Source: Luteibacter rhizovicinus DSM 16549 (lineage in GTDB: Bacteria; Pseudomonadota; Gammaproteobacteria; Xanthomonadales; Rhodanobacteraceae). From it: DNA of 64,000 bases. Below are positions 51,727 to 61,603 of the stretch, in pieces (position 1 is the first letter of the stretch; each line of letters opens with the position of its first letter). A program made the translations under genes and the position numbers. The notes under the pieces were generated by a model, which had not been told where the DNA came from, searched no databases, and was given only the letters and a program-made list of their open reading frames with translations. The DNA lies in assembly GCF_001887595.1 (NCBI RefSeq), contig NZ_CP017480.1, positions 1,302,001 to 1,366,000 of the forward strand. Direction: 5' to 3'.

Positions 51727-51780
51727 GTTCTACCGCACTGCAGCTTGAGCGCGTCAGCCACCACGCTACACTCGGCGGAT

Positions 51781-51974
51781 CACAGGTGTCCTGCCGCCGC
51801 ACACGCAGCGGGCAGGGTGAAACGGGAAGCCGGTGCGGATCGCGAGATCCCATGCCGGCGCTGCCCCCGCAACGGTAGGCGAGAACACCCGACGACGTAA
51901 CCACTGCGCGATGCGCGGGAAGGTGTCGGGGTGGTGCGGCATGCACCGCTCGCAAGCCCGGAGACCGGCCTGTG
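51781..51974 (+). promoter_or_regulatory. Cobalamin (adenosylcobalamin) riboswitch
   Basis: Closing stem CACAGG (51781-51786) / CCTGTG (51969-51974). Between them are the conserved aptamer blocks: GGGTGAAACGGGAAGCCGGT, GCTGCCCCCGCAACGGTA, CCACTG, GGGAAGGTGTCGG and GCAAGCCCGGAGACCGGCC. These match the B12-riboswitch consensus in order. It lies 137 bases upstream of mmsA on the same strand with no other gene between, so it should control the mmsA-led operon that ends in B12 transporter genes. The expression platform (51975-52111) has no obvious intrinsic terminator; a small hairpin near 52076-52092 could affect translation. Confidence 0.92.
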
Positions 51975-52111
51975 CAGGTGCCCCCAGGGGCGCCTCCTCG
52001 GGTGTTGCGGCGGGCAACCGGACGGGCTGATTCGGCGCGGCCACCCGCTGCTCCGCGTCCTCTTGTCTGCTTCGCCGCACCCCTTTCGCGGGTGAGCGTA
52101 CGGAGCAGGAC

Positions 52112-53635
52112 ATGAACAAGCTGGACTCAGTGGCGACCGATGTCGCGACCGTCAAATTGCTGATCGACGGCATCTTCGTCGAATCCCGATCCACCGAATG
52201 GCGCGATGTCGTCAATCCCGCGACCCAGGCGGTCCTGGCGCGCGTGCCTTTCGCGACCACCGACGAGGTGAACGCCGCGGTCGCCGCCGCCGCGCAGGCG
52301 TTCAAGAGCTGGCGCAAGACACCGATCGGCGTACGCGCGCGCATCTTCCTTAAGTACCAGCAGCTGATTCGCGAACACATGGGCGAGCTCGCCGCCCTGC
52401 TCAGCGCCGAGCAGGGCAAGACGCTTCCCGACGCCGAAGGCGACGTCTTCCGTGGCCTGGAAGTGGTCGAGCACGCCGCCGCCATCGGCAACCTGCAGCT
52501 GGGCGAACTGGCCAACAACGTCGCCGGCGGCGTCGACACGTTCACGCTTCTGCAGCCGATCGGGGTCTGTGCCGGCATCACGCCGTTCAATTTCCCCGCC
52601 ATGATTCCGCTGTGGATGTTCCCGATGGCGATCGCCACCGGCAACACCTTCGTGCTGAAGCCGTCCGAGCAGGATCCGATGGTGACGATGCGTCTGGTCG
52701 AACTGGCACTCGAAGCCGGCATCCCGAAGGGCGTGCTCAACGTGGTCCACGGCGGTGAAAACGTAGTCAATGCGATCTGCGATCACGTCGATATCAAGGC
52801 GGTCTCCTTCGTCGGCTCCACGCGCGTCGGCACTCACGTGTATCACCGGGCCTCGCAGACCGGCAAGCGCGTGCAGTGCATGATGGGCGCGAAAAATCAT
52901 GCTGTCGTGTTGCCGGATGCCAACAAGGAACAGACGCTCAACGCCCTCGCCGGCGCAGCTTTCGGTGCGGCAGGCCAACGCTGCATGGCAGCGTCGACCG
53001 CAGTACTGGTCGGCGACGCACAGAACTGGATTCCCGAGCTCGTGGCCAAGGCGAAGACGCTGAAGGTGGGCGCGGGCCATGCCGCCGGCACCGATGTCGG
53101 ACCGCTGATTTCCTGTGCGGCGCGCGAGCGTGTCGAGGCCTACATTGCCTCGGGTGTGGAGCAAGGTGCCACCCTCGAACTCGACGGCCGCAAGCCGGTG
53201 GTGCCCGGCTTCGAGGAAGGTAATTTCGTTGGACCGACCATCTTCTCGGGCGTGCGGCCGGGCATGCGCATCTATGACGAAGAGATCTTCGGACCCGTGC
53301 TGGTGATCCTGGCCGTCGACTCGCTCGACGAGGCGATCGACCTGGTCAACGCCAATCCAAACGGCAACGGCACGGCGGTGTTCACCCAGTCCGGCGCCGC
53401 GGCGCGACGTTTCCAGGAAGACATCGACGTGGGCCAGGTTGGCATCAACGTGCCGATTCCCGTACCGGTGCCGCTGTTCTCGTTCACCGGGTCGCGCGCG
53501 TCGAAGCTCGGCGACCTTGGCCCCTACGGCAAGCAGGTGGTCATGTTCTACACCCAGACCAAGACGGTGACGCAGCGCTGGTTCGATGACGACACGCTGC
53601 ACGTCGGCGTCAACACCACCATCAGTCTCAAGTGA
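52112..53635 (+). CDS. mmsA: CoA-acylating methylmalonate-semialdehyde dehydrogenase
   Basis: 507 residues. Aldehyde dehydrogenase fold with the catalytic cysteine C291 in [12 protein letters not shown], and the MMSDH-specific [20 protein letters not shown] and [19 protein letters not shown] blocks. It converts methylmalonate semialdehyde to propionyl-CoA with NAD+ and CoA in valine breakdown. It leads a run of valine catabolic genes and is directly downstream of the cobalamin riboswitch. Its stop overlaps the acyl-CoA dehydrogenase start (TGATG). Confidence 0.95.
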
Positions 53636-54825
53636 TGGCCGCGGTCATGGATATCCCGCGGATTCCCCCACCACAGACTGACCTGAGCGACGATCAACTG
53701 GCCTTCCGCGATGCGGCGCACGCGTTCGCCCTCGCCGAGCTCGCGCCGCACGCGGCACGCTGGGATGCCGAGAGCGAGTTCCCGCGCGAGGCGATCGGCA
53801 AGGCGGGCGACCTCGGTTTCTGCGGCCTTTATGTCGACGAGCAGGCCGGCGGTACCGGACTGACACGGCTCGATGCGGCGATCGTGTTCGAGGAACTCGC
53901 CGCCATCGATCCATCGACCGCCGCCTTCATCAGCATCCACAACATGGCCACCTGGATGCTGACCGCCCATGCAACGCCGGCGGTGCGCGACATGTGGGGC
54001 CCGCTTCTCGCCAGCGGTACGAAGCTGGCGTCCTACTGCCTCACCGAGCCGGGTGCGGGCTCGGATGCCGGCGCGCTGAAGACGCGCGCCGATCGCGACG
54101 GCGACACCTACGTGCTCAGTGGCAGCAAAGCGTTCATTTCCGGCGCGGGTGCGACGGACATGCTGGTGGTGATGGCGCGTACGGCCGAGGGTGGCGCGCG
54201 AGGCATCAGCGCGTTCGCCGTGCCTGCCCACCTGCAGGGCATCGGCTATGGGCGCAACGAAGAAAAGCTCGGCTGGCACAGCCAGCCCACCCGAAGCGTC
54301 AGCTTCGACGGTGTGCGCATTCCGGCCGACCATCGGCTGGGTAGCGAGGGTGAGGGATTCAAGATCGCCATGAAGGGACTCGACGGCGGCCGCCTGAATA
54401 TCGCCGCGTGTTCGCTGGGCGCCGCCCAGGGGGCGCTGGATGCGGCACGGCGCTACATGGGTGAGCGCAAGCAGTTCGGCAAGAAGCTCGGCGAGTTCCA
54501 GGCCCTGCAGTTCAAGCTGGCCGACATGGCGACGCAGCTGGTCGCGGCACGGCAGATGGTACACACGGCCGCACGCAAGCTCGACGCCGGCAGCAGCGAC
54601 GCCACCGTGTGGTGTGCGATGGCCAAGCGCTTCGCCACGGACGCCGGCTTCGCCATCTGCAACGACGCCCTGCAGATCCACGGTGGCTACGGCTATATCC
54701 GTGAATACCCCATCGAACGCCTGCTGCGTGATTCCCGCGTGCACCAGATCCTCGAGGGCACCAATGAAATCATGCGCGTTATCATCGCGCGTCACCTGCT
54801 CAATACCGAAGAGGAACTGCGATGA
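53635..54825 (+). CDS. Acyl-CoA dehydrogenase (isobutyryl-CoA dehydrogenase-like)
   Basis: 396 residues from the ATG at 53635. The FAD-dependent ACAD signature CLTEPGAGSDAGALKTRA and the catalytic glutamate E374 in ILEGTNEIMR are present, with HGGYGYIREYPIERLLRDSR before it. The valine-operon position suggests oxidation of isobutyryl-CoA to methacrylyl-CoA. It overlaps both neighbours by a few bases. Confidence 0.92.
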   Translation: MAAVMDIPRIPPPQTDLSDDQLAFRDAAHAFALAELAPHAARWDAESEFPREAIGKAGDLGFCGLYVDEQAGGTGLTRLDAAIVFEELAAIDPSTAAFISIHNMATWMLTAHATPAVRDMWGPLLASGTKLASYCLTEPGAGSDAGALKTRADRDGDTYVLSGSKAFISGAGATDMLVVMARTAEGGARGISAFAVPAHLQGIGYGRNEEKLGWHSQPTRSVSFDGVRIPADHRLGSEGEGFKIAMKGLDGGRLNIAACSLGAAQGALDAARRYMGERKQFGKKLGEFQALQFKLADMATQLVAARQMVHTAARKLDAGSSDATVWCAMAKRFATDAGFAICNDALQIHGGYGYIREYPIERLLRDSRVHQILEGTNEIMRVIIARHLLNTEEELR

Positions 54826-55616
54826 GCGACACCGCGACGCGCTATACCGGGCTTACGCTGGAGATCGACGGCCACGTGGCCGTCGTCACGCTCTCCAGCG
54901 CGCCAGCCAACGCCTGGACTCGCGACAGCCTGGTCGCCCTGCGGACCCTCGTCCACGACCTCGATGCCAACCGCGAGATCTATGCCCTGGTGATCACGGG
55001 CGAGGGCGAGAAGTTCTTTTCGGCCGGCGCCGACCTCAAGCAGTTCGCCGACGGCGACAAGGCCGTGGCCCGTGAAGCGGCACGTCGCTTCGGTGAGGCG
55101 TTCGAAGCGCTCTCCGCGTTCCGGGGCGTGAGCATCGCGGCGATCAACGGCTATGCCATGGGTGGCGGCCTCGAGTGCGCCCTGGCCTGCGACCTGCGCA
55201 TCGCCGAGGAGCAGGCGCAGATGGCCTTGCCCGAAGCCGGCGTGGGCCTGCTGCCCTGCGCAGGCGGCACGCAGAACCTCGCTCGTCTGGTCGGCGAAGG
55301 CTGGGCCAAGCGGATGATCCTGCTCGGCGAGCGGGTGGATGCAGCGACCGCGCAGCGCATCGGGCTGGTCGAAGACGTGGTACCGAAGGGCGAATCGCGT
55401 GCTCGCGCGATCGCCTGGGCACTTCAGGCCGGCAAGCAGAGCCCGACCAGTGTCGCGGCCTGCAAGCGCCTGGTCCAGGCCACGCGCACGCAGAGCCACG
55501 CCACGGCCCTGGTCAGCGAGCGCGAAGCCTTCGTCGACCTGTTCGATAGCCAGGACCAGAAAGAAGGTGTGCTGGCCTTTCTCGAGAAGCGCGCGCCGAC
55601 GTGGAAGAACGCATGA
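54822..55616 (+). CDS. Enoyl-CoA hydratase
   Basis: 264 residues of the crotonase fold: GEGEKFFSAGADLKQFA and AINGYAMGGGLECALACDLR with LPEAGVGLLPCAGGTQNLAR, both catalytic glutamates present. It hydrates methacrylyl-CoA to 3-hydroxyisobutyryl-CoA in valine catabolism. It overlaps both neighbours (ATGA). Confidence 0.9.
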   Translation: MSDTATRYTGLTLEIDGHVAVVTLSSAPANAWTRDSLVALRTLVHDLDANREIYALVITGEGEKFFSAGADLKQFADGDKAVAREAARRFGEAFEALSAFRGVSIAAINGYAMGGGLECALACDLRIAEEQAQMALPEAGVGLLPCAGGTQNLARLVGEGWAKRMILLGERVDAATAQRIGLVEDVVPKGESRARAIAWALQAGKQSPTSVAACKRLVQATRTQSHATALVSEREAFVDLFDSQDQKEGVLAFLEKRAPTWKNA

Positions 55617-56794
55617 GCGACACGACTCTCCCGCCGCCGCCCGAAGCACCGGTCCTGTTCGAGGAACGCGTCGCCGACAACGGCAAGCGCATCGGCATCG
55701 CGACACTCAACGCCGCGAAGACGCTCAACGGCCTTTCGCTGGAGATGGCACGACTCCTCGACGAGCGGCTGCGCGCGTGGGCCAGCGACGACGCCGTCGC
55801 CATGGTGGTGTTGCAAGGCGCGGGCGAGAAGGCATTCTGCGCAGGTGGCGATCTGCACAGCCTGTATCGGTCCATGCGCGACTACCAGGCAAGCGGCAGC
55901 ACCGACGTGCGCGACAACACGTATGCCAGCGACTTCTTTTCGGTCGAGTACCGGCTCGACTACCTGATCCATACGTTCCCGAAACCCGTCCTCTGCTGGG
56001 GTCATGGCATCGTCATGGGCGGCGGCATCGGCCTGATGGCGGGCGCGAGCCATCGCGTGGTCACCGAACGCTCGCGGCTCGCCTTCCCGGAGATCACCAT
56101 CGGACTCTATCCGGACGTGGGCGGGAGCTTCCTGCTTCATCGCGTACCGGCGCACGCGGGTGTCTTCCTCGCGCTGACCGGCGCACCACTGACCAGCGGC
56201 GACGCCATCCATGCCGGTCTCGCCGATGTGCAGCTTCCGGCAGACCGTCGTGACGATCTCGATGCCGCGCTGTTGCTCGCCGCATGGACGGATGACCGGC
56301 ACGCGAACGCCGACCTGCTCACGAAGGTGTTGGAGGGCTTCGCGGTGCCGGCTACGCCGGGTCCGCTGCAGGGTCATCGTGGCGCGATCGAGGCCGCCTG
56401 TGCCCACGACGATCTCGACACTGTACTGGCGGCTATCCAGGCCATGCCGGGCGACGATCCCTGGCTGGTCACGGCACGACAGACGCTGGAGGCGGGCGCA
56501 CCGGGGTCGGCACGACTGGCGTTCGCGCTGCAACAGCGCGTCGCGTCTCTTTCGCTGGCGGACACCTTCCGCCTGGAATATGTCGTTTCCCTGCACTGCG
56601 CGGCCTACGGCGATTTCGCCGAAGGCATCCGTGCGTTGCTGATCGACAAGGACCGCACGCCGCGCTGGCGTCCGGCCACCCTGACCAACGCCACGCAGGC
56701 CTGGGTCGAGCCCTTCTTCGTCGAACCCTGGAGCGCGGGCGGACATCCGCTGCGCGACCTGGGTAACGACACCGCACCGAGGACGGAACGATGA
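55613..56794 (+). CDS. 3-hydroxyisobutyryl-CoA hydrolase
   Basis: 393 residues from the ATG at 55613 overlapping the preceding stop. Crotonase fold with the HIBYL-CoA hydrolase pattern: GAGEKAFCAGGDLHSLYRSM, HGIVMGGGIGLMAGASHRVV and FPEITIGLYPDVGGSFLLHR. Longer than hydratases because of the C-terminal helical region (VEPFFVEPWSAG). It releases free 3-hydroxyisobutyrate for the next enzyme, MmsB. Confidence 0.9.
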   Translation: MSDTTLPPPPEAPVLFEERVADNGKRIGIATLNAAKTLNGLSLEMARLLDERLRAWASDDAVAMVVLQGAGEKAFCAGGDLHSLYRSMRDYQASGSTDVRDNTYASDFFSVEYRLDYLIHTFPKPVLCWGHGIVMGGGIGLMAGASHRVVTERSRLAFPEITIGLYPDVGGSFLLHRVPAHAGVFLALTGAPLTSGDAIHAGLADVQLPADRRDDLDAALLLAAWTDDRHANADLLTKVLEGFAVPATPGPLQGHRGAIEAACAHDDLDTVLAAIQAMPGDDPWLVTARQTLEAGAPGSARLAFALQQRVASLSLADTFRLEYVVSLHCAAYGDFAEGIRALLIDKDRTPRWRPATLTNATQAWVEPFFVEPWSAGGHPLRDLGNDTAPRTER

Positions 56795-57681
56795 GTCGCA
56801 TCGCTTTCATCGGCCTGGGCAACATGGGCGGCCCGATGGCCGCCAACCTGCTCAAGGCCGGGCACACGCTGCATGTTTTCGATCTTTCCGCCGATGCGGT
56901 GGCGCAAGCCGTCACCCACGGCGCCACGGCCGCGAACACGGCGATCGACGCCGTGCAAGATGCGGAGGTCGTGATTTCCATGCTGCCGGCGAGCCGCCAC
57001 GTCGAAGGGCTGTACCTCGGCGACGCCGGGCTACTCCGGCACATCGCCGAAGGCGCACTGGTGATCGACTGCAGCACGATCGCCCCGGCATCCGCGCAGA
57101 AGGTGGCTCGCGCCGCTGGCGAGCGTGGCCTCGCGATGATCGATGCGCCCGTGTCCGGCGGCACGGCCGGGGCAGCAGCCGGCACCCTCACCTTCATCGT
57201 CGGCGGTGAGGGCGATGCGCTGGAGCGTGCACGACCGTTGTTGGCCAGCATGGGCAAGAACATCTTCCATGTCGGCGCCAACGGCGCGGGCCAGGTGGCC
57301 AAGCTGTGCAACAACATGGCGCTCGGCGTCATCATGGCGGTGACCGGCGAAGCGATCGCACTCGGTGCGGCGCATGGTCTGGATCCGACCGTGCTGTCGC
57401 AGATGATGGCCGTGAGCACCGCGCGCAGCTGGGCCACCGAAGTCTGCAACCCCTGGCCGGGCGTGCTCGAGAACGCGCCCGCCTCGCGGGGTTACACCGG
57501 CGGCTTCGGCAACGACCTCATGCTCAAAGACCTCGGGCTCGCCGCCGAAGCGGCGATGGGTGTGGGCGCATCGATTCCGCTGGGCGAACTCGCACGCAAT
57601 CTCTATGCGATGAACAGCCAGGCCGGCAACGGCGGCCTGGACTTCTCCAGTGTCGTGAAACTCGTGGCGAAGACGCCTTAG
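56791..57681 (+). CDS. mmsB: 3-hydroxyisobutyrate dehydrogenase
   Basis: 296 residues. NAD-binding IAFIGLGNMGGPMAANLLKA at the N-terminus, the substrate block DAPVSGGTAGAAAGTLTFIV, and the catalytic lysine in GAGQVAKLCNNM. It oxidises 3-hydroxyisobutyrate to methylmalonate semialdehyde, the substrate of MmsA. It is the last valine gene; a short gap with a palindromic operator precedes the Fic gene. Confidence 0.95.
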   Translation: MSRIAFIGLGNMGGPMAANLLKAGHTLHVFDLSADAVAQAVTHGATAANTAIDAVQDAEVVISMLPASRHVEGLYLGDAGLLRHIAEGALVIDCSTIAPASAQKVARAAGERGLAMIDAPVSGGTAGAAAGTLTFIVGGEGDALERARPLLASMGKNIFHVGANGAGQVAKLCNNMALGVIMAVTGEAIALGAAHGLDPTVLSQMMAVSTARSWATEVCNPWPGVLENAPASRGYTGGFGNDLMLKDLGLAAEAAMGVGASIPLGELARNLYAMNSQAGNGGLDFSSVVKLVAKTP

Positions 57682-57692
57682 GTGGTGGCGAA

Positions 57693-57755
57693 TGAGCCGA
57701 TTAGCGGATATATTCGGCTCATTCCGTGAGCCGAATAGCTCCTTCATTCGGCTCA
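57693..57755. promoter_or_regulatory. Duplicated palindromic operator upstream of the Fic gene
   Basis: Two 29-base palindromic units of form TGAGCCGAAT-N9-ATTCGGCTCA (57693-57721 and 57727-57755) separated by five bases; the first unit has one or two mismatches. Four copies of the 10-base word alternate in orientation with centres 34 bp apart. They lie just before the Fic start at 57776. The Fic protein's winged-helix C-terminus is a natural candidate to bind them. Confidence 0.7.
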
Positions 57756-57775
57756 CCCGGCCCGAGAAAGGCGAG

Positions 57776-58921
57776 ATGACCGACCCCCGATGGATCTGGC
57801 AACACGCTGACTGGCCTGCCTTTCACTGGCAGGGAGACCGTGTGCCCGCCCTTTTGCGGGCCTGCCAGTTGGCCCAGGGGCGCCTCCTGGGTGCCGTCGG
57901 GTCGGCCGGTGCCGAGGCCGGACTCGAAACAGAGCTGGATGCGCTGCTGCAGAACATCATCACGTCATCGGCCATCGAGGGTGAGCAACTCAACGCGGGC
58001 TCGGTGCGCTCGTCGCTGGCACGCCGCCTCGGCATCGAGAGCGACGCGGACGGACGCAGCACGCCGCGCAGCGAAGGCCTGGCCGAACTGATGCTGGACG
58101 CGACCCAGCATTACAGGCAACCACTAAATCTCGAACGGCTGTTTCAGTGGCACCACTTGCTGTTCCCTGCCCGGGAGTCACTGCTTCCCGTACGAATCCG
58201 CGTAGGAGAACTTCGAGGTGACGAGCCGATGCAGGTCGTCTCCGGTCGACTCGATAGGCCGACCGTTCACTTCGAAGCACCGCCACGTGACGGCCTCGAG
58301 ACGCAGGTCGACGCATTCCTTAGGTGGTTCGAATCCAGCGTGCATACGTCGACACTGGACCCGCTCCTGCGTGCCGCCGTCGCGCATTTCTGGTTCGTCA
58401 CATTGCATCCCTTCGACGACGGCAACGGGCGCCTGACACGCGCGATCACCGATCTGGCACTGGCCCAGGCCGAACATCAGGCGATCCGCTTTTATACGAT
58501 GTCGGCCAGCATCCTTGCCGATCGTGCGGGCTACTATCGCGTGCTCGAGCACTGTCAGAAAGGCGATCTCGATATCACGGCATGGGTGCTGTGGTTCCTG
58601 CAGACCTTGCTCGATAGCCTGCAGCAGGCGCTGTTGCGTATCGAGCGCGTGCTCGGCAAGGCGCGTTTCTGGCGCGAGCATGGCGACCACGTGCTATCCG
58701 CGGAACAGCGCAAGGTGATCAACCGGCTGCTCGACGGTGGCGAACGTGGTTTCGACGGTGGCATCAACGCCTCGCAATACCAGGCCGTAGCCAAGGTCTC
58801 GAAGGCCACGGCCACGCGTCATCTGGGCGACCTCATGGACAAGGGCCTCCTGCGCAAACTGCCCGGTGGTGGCCGGAGCACGCGCTATGTCGTCGACTGG
58901 CCCATGCAGGCCACACGGTGA
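57776..58921 (+). CDS. Fic-family AMPylase-like protein with N-terminal DUF4172 and C-terminal winged helix
   Basis: 381 residues from the ATG at 57776. Domains in order: DUF4172 at about 1-75 (WIWQHADWPAFHWQ), including the auto-inhibitory helix S64-x3-E68-G69 (TSSAIEGE); Fic core with H211 in LHPFDDGNGRLTRAI; C-terminal winged helix (KVSKATATRHLGDLMDKGLL). The core transfers AMP or another nucleotide to a target protein; the inhibitory glutamate keeps it off by itself. It is inserted between the valine genes and the B12 transporter genes, and its stop overlaps the next start (GTGA). Confidence 0.9.
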   Translation: MTDPRWIWQHADWPAFHWQGDRVPALLRACQLAQGRLLGAVGSAGAEAGLETELDALLQNIITSSAIEGEQLNAGSVRSSLARRLGIESDADGRSTPRSEGLAELMLDATQHYRQPLNLERLFQWHHLLFPARESLLPVRIRVGELRGDEPMQVVSGRLDRPTVHFEAPPRDGLETQVDAFLRWFESSVHTSTLDPLLRAAVAHFWFVTLHPFDDGNGRLTRAITDLALAQAEHQAIRFYTMSASILADRAGYYRVLEHCQKGDLDITAWVLWFLQTLLDSLQQALLRIERVLGKARFWREHGDHVLSAEQRKVINRLLDGGERGFDGGINASQYQAVAKVSKATATRHLGDLMDKGLLRKLPGGGRSTRYVVDWPMQATR

Positions 58922-59952
58922 CGATCCGACGTTCTGCGGGAACACCGCGCATGGCTAGCTTCGGATCGGCCGTCCGTCTCTGGCTCGGCATGCTGATCGT
59001 CGGCGCCATCGCCCTGCTGGCATCCATCCTGCTGGGCGGAGGCGACTCGACCATCGCGGCGTCATGGCAGGGCCTGGTCTCGTCGGCAGACACGCCGATG
59101 CATTCGATCATCTGGGAGCTGCGCCTTCCGCGCTCCATCGCGGCCTACGGCGTGGGCGGCCTGCTGGCGATGTCGGGCTGCCTGATGCAGATCCTGGTGC
59201 GCAATCCCCTGGCCGATCCCTACACCCTCGGCCTTTCCGGCGGCGCCTCGGTCGGCGCCCTGGGTGCCATGTTGGGAGGGTTGGGGGCGGTACTGACGGC
59301 CGCGGGCGCGGCATCGGGCGCACTGCTCGCTTGCGTCGCGGTCTTCGTGCTCGGTCATCGTGACCTGCTTTCGCGGCAACGTGCGGCACAACGTGAGGAC
59401 TCCACCGACCTGATCCTGATCGGCGTCATGCTGGCCTCAGGCTTCGGTGCCATCGTCAGCATGATGCTGGTGCTGGCCCCGGACAAGAATCTTCGCGGCA
59501 TGCTGTTCTGGATGATGGGCGACCTCAGCGGCGTGGCCAATCCGTGGCTGCCCGTGATCAGTCTCCTGTTCGGCGTACTGTGCGTCGTACCGCTTGGGCG
59601 ACAGCTGAACCTGCTCGGTCGCGGTGAAGAATCCGCCAGTGCGCTCGGCGTCCGCCCCAACGTCGTGAAGTCCGCCATCTTCGTCATCGCTTCGCTGGCG
59701 ACCGCCGTGGCCGTGACCACGGCAGGCACGGTGGGCTTCGTCGGACTGGTGGTGCCGCATGCCTTGCGCCGGGTGATCGGCAACGACCAGCGCGTCCTCA
59801 TCCCGGCATGCGCGATCGGTGGCGGCATCGTCGTGGTCGTCGCCGACGCCATATCGCGCATCGTGGCCGATCCCATCCAGTTACCGGTGGGCGCGGTCAT
59901 GGCGGTGATCGGTGTCCCCACCTTCATGTTCCTGCTGGTGAAACGCCGATGA
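58918..59952 (+). CDS. btuC: Vitamin B12 ABC transporter permease, BtuC/FecCD family
   Basis: 344 residues from a GTG overlapping the Fic stop; an ATG at 58951 is an alternative. About ten transmembrane helices and the FecCD pattern (RLPRSIAAYGVGGLLAMSGC, NPLADPYTLGLSGGASVGAL, GTVGFVGLVVPHALRRVIGN). With the ATPase and binding protein that follow it imports B12. FecCD permeases also serve siderophores, but the cobalamin riboswitch supports B12. Confidence 0.85.
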   Translation: MTIRRSAGTPRMASFGSAVRLWLGMLIVGAIALLASILLGGGDSTIAASWQGLVSSADTPMHSIIWELRLPRSIAAYGVGGLLAMSGCLMQILVRNPLADPYTLGLSGGASVGALGAMLGGLGAVLTAAGAASGALLACVAVFVLGHRDLLSRQRAAQREDSTDLILIGVMLASGFGAIVSMMLVLAPDKNLRGMLFWMMGDLSGVANPWLPVISLLFGVLCVVPLGRQLNLLGRGEESASALGVRPNVVKSAIFVIASLATAVAVTTAGTVGFVGLVVPHALRRVIGNDQRVLIPACAIGGGIVVVVADAISRIVADPIQLPVGAVMAVIGVPTFMFLLVKRR

Positions 59953-60737
59953 GCAGCGTCCTCGCCACCGAGGCGGTCAGCCTCTCCGTACGCGAACGCC
60001 TGCTGGTGCAGCAGTTGAGCATGCGCGTCGATCCGGGGCAGGTCTGGTGTGTGCTGGGCCCCAACGGCGCCGGCAAGTCGACCCTGCTACGCACGCTGGC
60101 CGGCTTGCGCGAGCCCGACCAGGGCCGCGTGACCCTGGGTGAGCGCGACATACGATCGTATCGGCCCATCGAACTCGCCCGCTTGCGGGGCTTCCTGCCG
60201 CAATCCATCGTCGACGCCTTCAGCCTCACGGTCATGGAAGCGGTGATCGCCGCGCGTCATCCGCGCCTTCCGTTCTGGGCATGGGGCGATGAAGACCTCG
60301 AACCCGCGCGGAACGCCTTGCGGACCTTCGAACTCGAGGCACTCGCCGAACGCGACGTCACCACGCTGTCCGGCGGCGAACGGCAGCGGGTGAACATCGC
60401 CGCGTTGTTCACCCAGGACGTCGACGTGATGCTCCTCGACGAACCCCTGTCATCGCTGGACCTGCATCACCAGATGAAGACCTTGCACGAGTTGCTGCTG
60501 ACGGCGGAGCGCGAGAACAAATCCGTCGTCTACACCGTGCATGACATCAACCTCGCGTTCCAGCATGCGACGCATGCCGTACTGCTGGACGGCAGCGGCG
60601 GCGCACTCGCCGGCCTCAAGGACGAGGTGATCACCAGCGAGCATCTGTCTGCCGCTTTCCACCACCCCATCCACGGCGTGACTCTCGACGGCGAACGATT
60701 TTTCCGCGCCGGACGCCTTAACGGAATTTCCCCATGA
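59949..60737 (+). CDS. btuD: Vitamin B12 ABC transporter ATP-binding protein
   Basis: 262 residues from the ATG at 59949 overlapping the BtuC stop. Walker A GPNGAGKST, the Q-loop near RGFLPQS, signature LSGGERQRV, Walker B VMLLDEP and the H-loop VYTVHDINL are complete. It powers the permease by ATP hydrolysis. Confidence 0.88.
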   Translation: MSSVLATEAVSLSVRERLLVQQLSMRVDPGQVWCVLGPNGAGKSTLLRTLAGLREPDQGRVTLGERDIRSYRPIELARLRGFLPQSIVDAFSLTVMEAVIAARHPRLPFWAWGDEDLEPARNALRTFELEALAERDVTTLSGGERQRVNIAALFTQDVDVMLLDEPLSSLDLHHQMKTLHELLLTAERENKSVVYTVHDINLAFQHATHAVLLDGSGGALAGLKDEVITSEHLSAAFHHPIHGVTLDGERFFRAGRLNGISP

Positions 60738-61603
60738 TTCGCCGCCTCGCCCTGCTCGCTTTCTTCATCACCGGCGCCGCCAGCGCCGACGTCACGGTGA
60801 CCGACGACGCGGGTCGGGCTGTCGCGCTGAAAGCCCCGGCGCGACGCATCGTCAGCCTGGCACCGAACATCACCGATGCGCTCTTCGCCGCTGGTGCTGG
60901 TGCTTACGTGGTGGGCACGTCGCGTTTCAGCGACTACCCGGCCGAAGCGAAGAAGGTGGCCATCGTCGGCGACGCCACGATGATCGACCTGGAACGCATT
61001 GTCGGGCTCAAACCGGACGTCATCGTCGTCTGGCGCAGCGGGACACCGGCAGCGCAAGTGGAAAAGTTGAGCCGGCTCGGCATCCCGATTTTCTACTCGG
61101 AGACGACGCGGCTCGCCGATGTCGCGCCCGCCACACGCCGCTTCGGGACGCTGGCCGGCACGCAGGACGAAGCGAACAGGAACGCCGCCGCGTTCGACGC
61201 GTCGCTGGCGAAGCTTCGTGGCGAGTACGCGGGCAAGGCGCGCCTGAAGGTGTTCTACCAGATTTGGGACCGCCCCCTGATGACCATCGGGCACGCGCAG
61301 ATCATCGATGACGCCCTCGACCTCTGCGGTGGCGACAATATCTTCGCCGACCTCTCGCAAGCCGCTCCCACCGTGACGCGGGAGGCCGTACTGGCGCGCA
61401 ACCCCGATGTCATCGTCAGCGGCGATGGCGGCCACGATGCCCTGGCGAGCTGGCGGCAAAGCGGCTTCCTGAGCGCCGTGAAGCACGACAACGTCTTCAC
61501 CATCGACGCACCGACGCTTGCCCTGCCCTCGCCCTCGATCCTCGGCAGCGTCGACCTGCTCTGTCATCGGCTGGACGACGCCCGGCGCCGAAGCCAGCGC
61601 TGA
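60734..61603 (+). CDS. btuF: Periplasmic B12-binding protein, BtuF/FhuD-like
   Basis: 289 residues overlapping the BtuD stop. A signal peptide (MIRRLALLAFFITGAASA) then a periplasmic binding fold: RIVSLAPNITDALFAAGAGA, SDYPAEAKKVAIVGDATM, VIVVWRSGTPAAQVEKLSRL. Binds cobalamin and delivers it to BtuC. No TonB-dependent receptor gene is in the window, so outer-membrane uptake must be encoded elsewhere. Confidence 0.85.
   Translation: MIRRLALLAFFITGAASADVTVTDDAGRAVALKAPARRIVSLAPNITDALFAAGAGAYVVGTSRFSDYPAEAKKVAIVGDATMIDLERIVGLKPDVIVVWRSGTPAAQVEKLSRLGIPIFYSETTRLADVAPATRRFGTLAGTQDEANRNAAAFDASLAKLRGEYAGKARLKVFYQIWDRPLMTIGHAQIIDDALDLCGGDNIFADLSQAAPTVTREAVLARNPDVIVSGDGGHDALASWRQSGFLSAVKHDNVFTIDAPTLALPSPSILGSVDLLCHRLDDARRRSQR

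Follow-up and report, generated by a model that had tools for sequence, protein, structure and literature searches.

A stretch of 64,000 nucleotides from the genome of the soil bacterium Luteibacter rhizovicinus DSM 16549 (contig NZ_CP017480.1, positions 1,302,001 to 1,366,000; G000:C1:1302001-1366000 in our genome collection), hereafter called the window, carries a cobalamin (B12) riboswitch ahead of a valine-catabolism operon, the mms operon. The riboswitch is real and conserved, and most likely it lets B12 decide which of two routes isobutyryl-CoA takes. We think that the mms operon is probably the B12-independent exit for isobutyryl-CoA and that a translational OFF riboswitch shuts it down in the presence of B12, with the B12-dependent mutase IcmF as the alternative. 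In the presence of B12, adenosylcobalamin would bind to the aptamer, the ligand-bound leader would hide the Shine-Dalgarno (SD) sequence of mmsA, and isobutyryl-CoA would flow through IcmF (isobutyryl-CoA/n-butyryl-CoA mutase) to ordinary β-oxidation; the operon would be switched off because, as we propose, IcmF then handles isobutyryl-CoA. When B12 is scarce, IcmF would be idle, the leader would open, and acyl-CoA dehydrogenase (ACAD), enoyl-CoA hydratase (ECH), 3-hydroxyisobutyryl-CoA hydrolase (HIBCH), MmsB, and MmsA would convert isobutyryl-CoA to propionyl-CoA, which might then be used by the B12-free methylcitrate route. Such a logic would be that of the metE and nrdAB riboswitches of the same genome, extended to a whole catabolic branch.

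The aptamer of the window matches RF00174 at 51767..51987 of the plus strand (93.8 bits, E 5e-22, gathering threshold 31.5) over the complete model (1-189) and carries the core motifs CACTG and GGGAAG as well as the B12 box. A first-pass annotation made from the letters of the window had claimed a complete B12 aptamer 137 bp upstream of mmsA, and this is borne out, as mmsA starts at 52112 and the aptamer had been taken to end at 51974. A promoter-like site (TTGAGC-16-TACACT, 51745..51772, plus strand) ends 11 nt 5' of the AGGTG of the aptamer. In 20 of 21 leaders compared, one of the two top hits is a -10-like hexamer 11-12 nt ahead of AGGTG, and in the remaining leader, that of G180, the hexamer was spotted by eye; transcription should therefore start at the aptamer. 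The same annotation had considered that a promoter or terminator between aptamer and mmsA would sever the connection, and a consensus scan, which also missed the likely upstream promoter, revealed neither.

Between the aptamer and mmsA, the leader contains several plus-strand elements. A hairpin (GTTGC-GGCGG-GCAAC, 52004..52018), recognized in the leader alignment, has a loop GGNGG that is common to 19 leaders; over these leaders 98.9% of the cells are paired and four of the five base pairs never vary. A kissing loop between L5 and L13 of cobalamin riboswitches is described in the available text of PMC9600662, and by analogy the hairpin is a candidate for P13/L13 kissing L5. Directly beside it lies a candidate anti-anti-SD strand (GGACGGG, 52020..52026), whose partner in the RNAalifold consensus is the CTTGTCT element at 52062..52068; this helix of a GGACGAG-like strand and CTTGTCT is paired in 92.4% of the cells in 19 leaders. 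Leader comparison indicates that CTTGTCT is alternatively able to pair with the SD region, i.e., with GGAGACAG in many relatives. In the window genome the best partner of the SD region is the anti-SD element CTGCTCCG (52048..52055), which forms a duplex of -16.2 kcal/mol with ACGGAGCAGGACAT. The SD sequence GGAG itself (52102..52105) is invariant in 19 leaders, partly by construction, as GGAG was used for cutting the leaders. When a partner strand is slid by 1-3 columns, pairing drops from 95% to 29-57%, which tells us no more than that the strands are aligned in register. SD-leader duplexes are more stable within genomes (-15.8 kcal/mol) than between genomes (-14.4 kcal/mol), and 12 of 10,000 permutations were as good, a figure uncorrected for kinship. 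By analogy with other cobalamin riboswitches, from which its direction is taken, this leader would be a translational OFF switch.

Five overlapping genes on the plus strand, spanning 52112-57681, follow the leader, and the start/stop overlaps reported for them in the first-pass annotation are real. The first, mmsA (52112..53635), encodes a methylmalonate-semialdehyde dehydrogenase (TIGR01722, 729.1 bits, cut-off 448.5). The ACAD encoded at 53632..54825 matches PF00441, PF02770, and PF02771, with all NCBIfam matches below their cut-offs; judged from its place in the operon, it is probably an isobutyryl-CoA dehydrogenase. It is followed by genes for ECH (54822..55616; subfamily model NF006566, 444 bits, cut-off 286), for HIBCH (55601..56794; NF004127, 326.9 bits, cut-off 274; PF16113), and for the 3-hydroxyisobutyrate dehydrogenase MmsB (56791..57681; TIGR01692, 394.8 bits, cut-off 291.6). 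In the established valine pathway, isobutyryl-CoA is the expected substrate for the first step encoded by this operon. For a second MmsA of the window genome (G000:C1:2414519; L090 7469-14568), the idea of a spare copy for valine breakdown was discarded, as its gene is located among iolE, iolD, and iolC and the protein is therefore probably IolA.

The B12 logic of the genome offers a context for such a switch. RF00174 has four matches in the complete genome of 4.77 Mb, and the three others precede metE (TIGR01371, 1066 bits, cut-off 930), nrdA (TIGR02506, 727 bits, cut-off 341) together with a likely nrdB that scores below model cut-offs, and btuB (TIGR01779, 568 bits, just under the cut-off of 599.7). 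NrdJ scores 580 bits against a cut-off of 400, and MetH is found as two adjoining matches (model positions 1-324 and 323-1182) at G000:C1:283853-287472. Given that both MetH and NrdJ are present, two of the three other riboswitches precede genes for B12-independent functions whose B12-dependent equivalents are encoded in the same genome. The two-part MetH match was also seen in seven other Rhodanobacteraceae genomes searched.

A candidate for the B12-dependent partner of the mms operon is IcmF. The window genome encodes an IcmF (NF045497, 1690 bits, cut-off 1500) that aligns over nearly its full length with IcmF chains of solved structure, e.g., 4xc6, and that is the only PF01642 protein of this genome, so that no canonical methylmalonyl-CoA mutase is found. 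We take 4xc6 and like chains to be from Cupriavidus metallidurans, and the Phe and Gln contacting the substrate, presumably residues 598 and 742 in Cupriavidus numbering, look conserved by eye. The first-pass annotation had connected valine breakdown with B12 by way of methylmalonyl-CoA mutase, a link that loses its ground with IcmF as the sole PF01642 protein and with prpE, prpB, and prpC present in the same genome; with these three genes, the cell probably has a B12-free way of using propionyl-CoA. The same genomic facts would also fit if IcmF were biosynthetic, making, when B12 is available, isobutyryl-CoA from butyryl-CoA as a primer for branched fatty acids, with the mms operon shut in order to spare this pool, and cinnamonensis is cited in the available text of PMC7238569 as a point in favor of such a role. 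We regard a biosynthetic IcmF as unlikely, as the families found around icmF comprise an esterase, an M50 peptidase, DUF3014, and a cyclophilin, besides one neighbor without family, and no fatty-acid genes are among them.

Conservation of the riboswitch was followed through 195 genomes of the family Rhodanobacteraceae, and 24 of these reach E 1e-214 or better with TIGR01722. Twenty-two of these count as operon genomes, as they combine a match to the full model (1-477) with the five-gene operon; in G154, G218, and second copies in G015 and G217, the TIGR01722 match begins only at position 2 of the model, and RF00174 matches nothing at those loci. The order of the five genes is identical in all 22 operon genomes, and RF00174 matches directly 5' of mmsA in 20 of them. 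IcmF is found in 54 of 61 relatives at E 1e-100 and in 182 of the 195 family genomes at E 1e-150. Among the operon genomes, 19 possess IcmF and three (G016, G017, and G020) have no match.

These three genomes are the ones in which the aptamer is not intact, GGGAAG being kept in the leaders of all 19 IcmF-positive operon genomes and intact in none of the three IcmF-less ones. The sister genomes G016 and G017 have lost the aptamer, and yet their promoter-like site and the leader up to the mmsA start are still recognizable. For G017, alignment with the window leaves a single gap of 207 nt (51788-51994), and the alignment of G016 is less tidy with similar ends. SD-leader pairing is weak in both (-10.7 kcal/mol in G016 and -11.1 kcal/mol in G017). 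In G020, an aptamer remnant scores 70.7 bits, with GGGAAG and CACTG both gone. Of 31 other B12 riboswitch loci examined, all keep GGGAAG and 29 keep CACTG, in a set that consists mostly of the best-scoring among the RF00174 matches listed and is therefore biased to intact riboswitches; L029, which is the mms riboswitch of G026, was excluded from this set, and L026, missed by the B12-box pattern, was dropped. The mms riboswitch of G026 has one changed base in its B12 box and is detected by RF00174, but not by the exact box pattern. The five operon proteins, concatenated, gave a tree with poorly supported deep nodes and a long Undibacterium branch; it joins G016 to G017 as sisters (100% support) and places G020 elsewhere, which indicates at least two events. 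With all genomes treated as independent, damage would fall on exactly the three IcmF-less genomes with a chance of 1 in 1540, a figure that disregards their relatedness and relies on a damage call for G020 made after inspection. With the aptamer-less sister genomes, nature has provided a control that makes the idea directly testable.

Might the riboswitch at mmsA instead be an ON switch, or a leftover without function? The promoter-like site, aptamer, and leader are kept over several genera, the core motif persists wherever IcmF accompanies the operon in the family, and SD regions pair preferentially with leaders of their own genome. Furthermore, premature termination at the riboswitch of the mmsA homologue of Streptomyces griseus is read as repression (PMC8914203, available text). 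An ON switch or a leftover is thus very unlikely, even considering that Stenotrophomonas mori, described below, has kept its riboswitch without IcmF.

Outside the family, the 80 best mmsA relatives were scanned with a B12-box pattern allowing up to 2 mismatches; Rfam was applied to 11 of the 80 and the pattern served for the other 69. A box 160 to 328 nt 5' of mmsA exists in three of the 80 loci. One of them, L109 from Luteibacter OK325, is taken to be G006, at whose locus Rfam finds the riboswitch. In S. mori (L120, 9672-9874), an mms riboswitch of 76.3 bits has its CACTG changed. The third, from the betaproteobacterium Undibacterium crateris (L151, 9499-9830), is a riboswitch of 109.4 bits 5' of an mms operon in a genome with IcmF; its leader forms a long hairpin followed 6 nt further by UUUUUU (fold z -1.41), and our guess is that this hairpin is a terminator, perhaps another kind of control. 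Near hits of the pattern close to mmsA in L111, L127, L160, and L163 were taken as chance because none matched RF00174. A Ralstonia locus carries a fluoride riboswitch (L181, 18114-18191). We are slightly inclined to think that a B12-gated valine fork has arisen more than once, i.e., in the SD type of the Rhodanobacteraceae, in Undibacterium, perhaps with a terminator, and in S. griseus as reported, and that the aptamer is removed or decays upon loss of the mutase. If so, B12 supply from neighbors would decide how amino-acid carbon is burned.

IcmF was sought in 49 of the 80 outside genomes, and five, including Undibacterium, were positive. A riboswitch was found in one of the 44 genomes without IcmF, for most of which the pattern was used. 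G057 belongs to the same order but to another family; its operon proteins are 62-85% identical and it has no IcmF match; within 1500 nt ahead of its mmsA there is no riboswitch, and one lies about 4 kb upstream in the opposite orientation. In the operon protein tree, G057, Xanthomonas nasturtii, a Pseudoxanthomonas, and S. mori group inside the Rhodanobacteraceae (support 75); all four are without an IcmF match and only S. mori has the riboswitch. The rule connecting IcmF with the riboswitch is good inside the Rhodanobacteraceae and weak outside.

Several observations weigh against a B12-gated choice between the mms operon and IcmF. Within the family, only two independent events tie IcmF loss to riboswitch damage. 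Outside it, only one of the five genomes with IcmF has the riboswitch, the other four possessing IcmF and mmsA but no riboswitch near mmsA, and S. mori keeps its mms riboswitch although neither IcmF nor MetH matches there at E 1e-100. In G016, G017, or G020, the IcmF model could at the cut-offs used have overlooked a methylmalonyl-CoA mutase or an isobutyryl-CoA mutase of the split kind; the PF01642 search covered the window genome. By family assignment, the two routes share the substrate isobutyryl-CoA and not the product, and as they end in different products, they are not isozymes. With regard to the leader, the IcmF-positive G130 pairs its SD region as weakly (-10.6 kcal/mol) as G016, whereas G020 pairs normally (-16.3 kcal/mol). 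The preference in SD pairing derives mainly from five GGAGCA genomes, leaders of the GGAGA type pair about equally well with the other SD type (-14.9 kcal/mol) and with their own (-14.6 kcal/mol), and covariation of the two leader helices is not above that of column shuffles. Finally, no 2-methylcitrate dehydratase was identified beside prpC in the two neighboring frames tested.

Downstream of mmsB, a gene for a Fic/DUF4172 protein (57777..58921, plus strand; PF13776, PF02661) lies outside the conserved unit. Its likely start at 57777 is 95 bp after the mmsB stop, with an alternative in-frame start at 57692. Inverted repeats GAGCCGAAT/ATTCGGCTC with TATATT (57693..57760, plus strand) are probably a promoter/operator of fic outside the riboswitch unit; similar repeats occur 5' of fic in G006, G019, and G021, in the latter even though the stretch fetched holds no mms genes. 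The repeats shared by the window, G006, G019, and G021 look like an operator that has been conserved, and the Fic protein may regulate its own gene there. Between the window and G006 or G019, Fic identity is only about 57%, as compared with about 90-95% for the flanking MmsB and BtuC, which suggests fast change or allele replacement.

The genes btuC-btuD-btuF (58918..61603, plus strand) encode a candidate corrinoid importer. BtuC, BtuD, and BtuF match B12-transporter models with scores below the equivalog cut-offs (196/334, 139/281, and 183/234 bits, respectively), and the B12 importer of the first-pass annotation is therefore likely and not certain. The chained overlaps described there are real for fic-btuC-btuD-btuF, but with 57777 as the start of fic there is no overlap between mmsB and fic, the gap holding the palindromic repeats. 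That annotation had also placed the catabolic genes and the importer under one riboswitch. Of this, the association with the catabolic genes holds, and the importer has to be taken out, since btuCDF is situated 3' of the operon in only three of the 22 family genomes (G000, G006, and G019) and five separate btuCDF loci elsewhere in the genus are without an RF00174 match. In 18 of the 22 genomes, btuCDF is absent from the 5 to 9 kb fetched downstream of the operon, and the contig of G130 ends about 1.4 kb 3' of the operon, too early for the linkage to be judged. Eight other Luteibacter genomes possess the operon, six with btuC elsewhere and two (G015 and G020) without a match at 1e-50. The importer is a neighbor of the mms operon in a few species.

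It is therefore very improbable that a single regulon unites the riboswitch with the valine genes and the importer and increases B12 uptake during valine breakdown for the benefit of methylmalonyl-CoA mutase, even if the three genomes mentioned have btuCDF behind the operon in the same orientation. The rarity of this linkage, the repeats that fic has of its own upstream, and the enzyme set of the window genome all speak against it. Also, a B12 sensor cannot report valine flux. The expectation of increased uptake whenever the flux from valine calls for the cofactor fails on this point, and an OFF switch would stop valine breakdown when B12 is plentiful.

If the choice between mms operon and IcmF is real, it suggests a function for IcmF in a family in which 182 of 195 genomes match it, explains a connection between riboswitch and mmsA left open in S. 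griseus, and widens the role of cobalamin riboswitches, so far seen with single replacement enzymes, to a decision between two catabolic routes. The connection between riboswitch and mmsA is not new, as it has been reported for S. griseus (PMC8914203), whereas the explanation by IcmF and the evidence from deletions appear to be new. Judged from their listings and available passages, no papers listed in searches of the open literature tie an mmsA riboswitch to isobutyryl-CoA mutase; PMC6759758 contains both "cobalamin riboswitch" and "isobutyryl-CoA mutase", and the sole mention of isobutyryl in the available text of PMC9600662 is the title of a reference. One regulon class in PMC3766115 is named "Isozymes of B12-dependent enzymes", and the main text of this paper contains neither "mmsA" nor "branched-chain".

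Among known systems, the btuB riboswitch, present also in the window genome, belongs to the same aptamer family as the mms riboswitch; in contrast, 19 of the 22 genomes, one of which is cut by a contig end, showed no btu genes next to the mms riboswitch. The riboswitches of metE and of Streptomyces nrdABS resemble that of mms in that RF00174 precedes a B12-independent function while a B12-dependent enzyme is encoded in the genome. Unlike them, mms comprises five genes for a catabolic route that ends in a different product, and its partner would be IcmF. As far as the available text of PMC8176718 goes, isobutyryl-CoA mutase of Streptomyces albus is induced on valine and a by-pass via butyryl-CoA is proposed, which is similar to our proposal in that conversion of isobutyryl-CoA to butyryl-CoA provides a second valine route, but differs in having no link to a riboswitch. 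In S. griseus, according to the available text of PMC8914203, a predicted cobalamin riboswitch precedes the methylmalonate-semialdehyde dehydrogenase gene (SGR_RS05925) and shows growth-phase-dependent premature termination. It shares with the window the riboswitch on the same gene and the valine-degradation genes downstream, although control there is of the termination type, in another phylum, and with no partner enzyme named.

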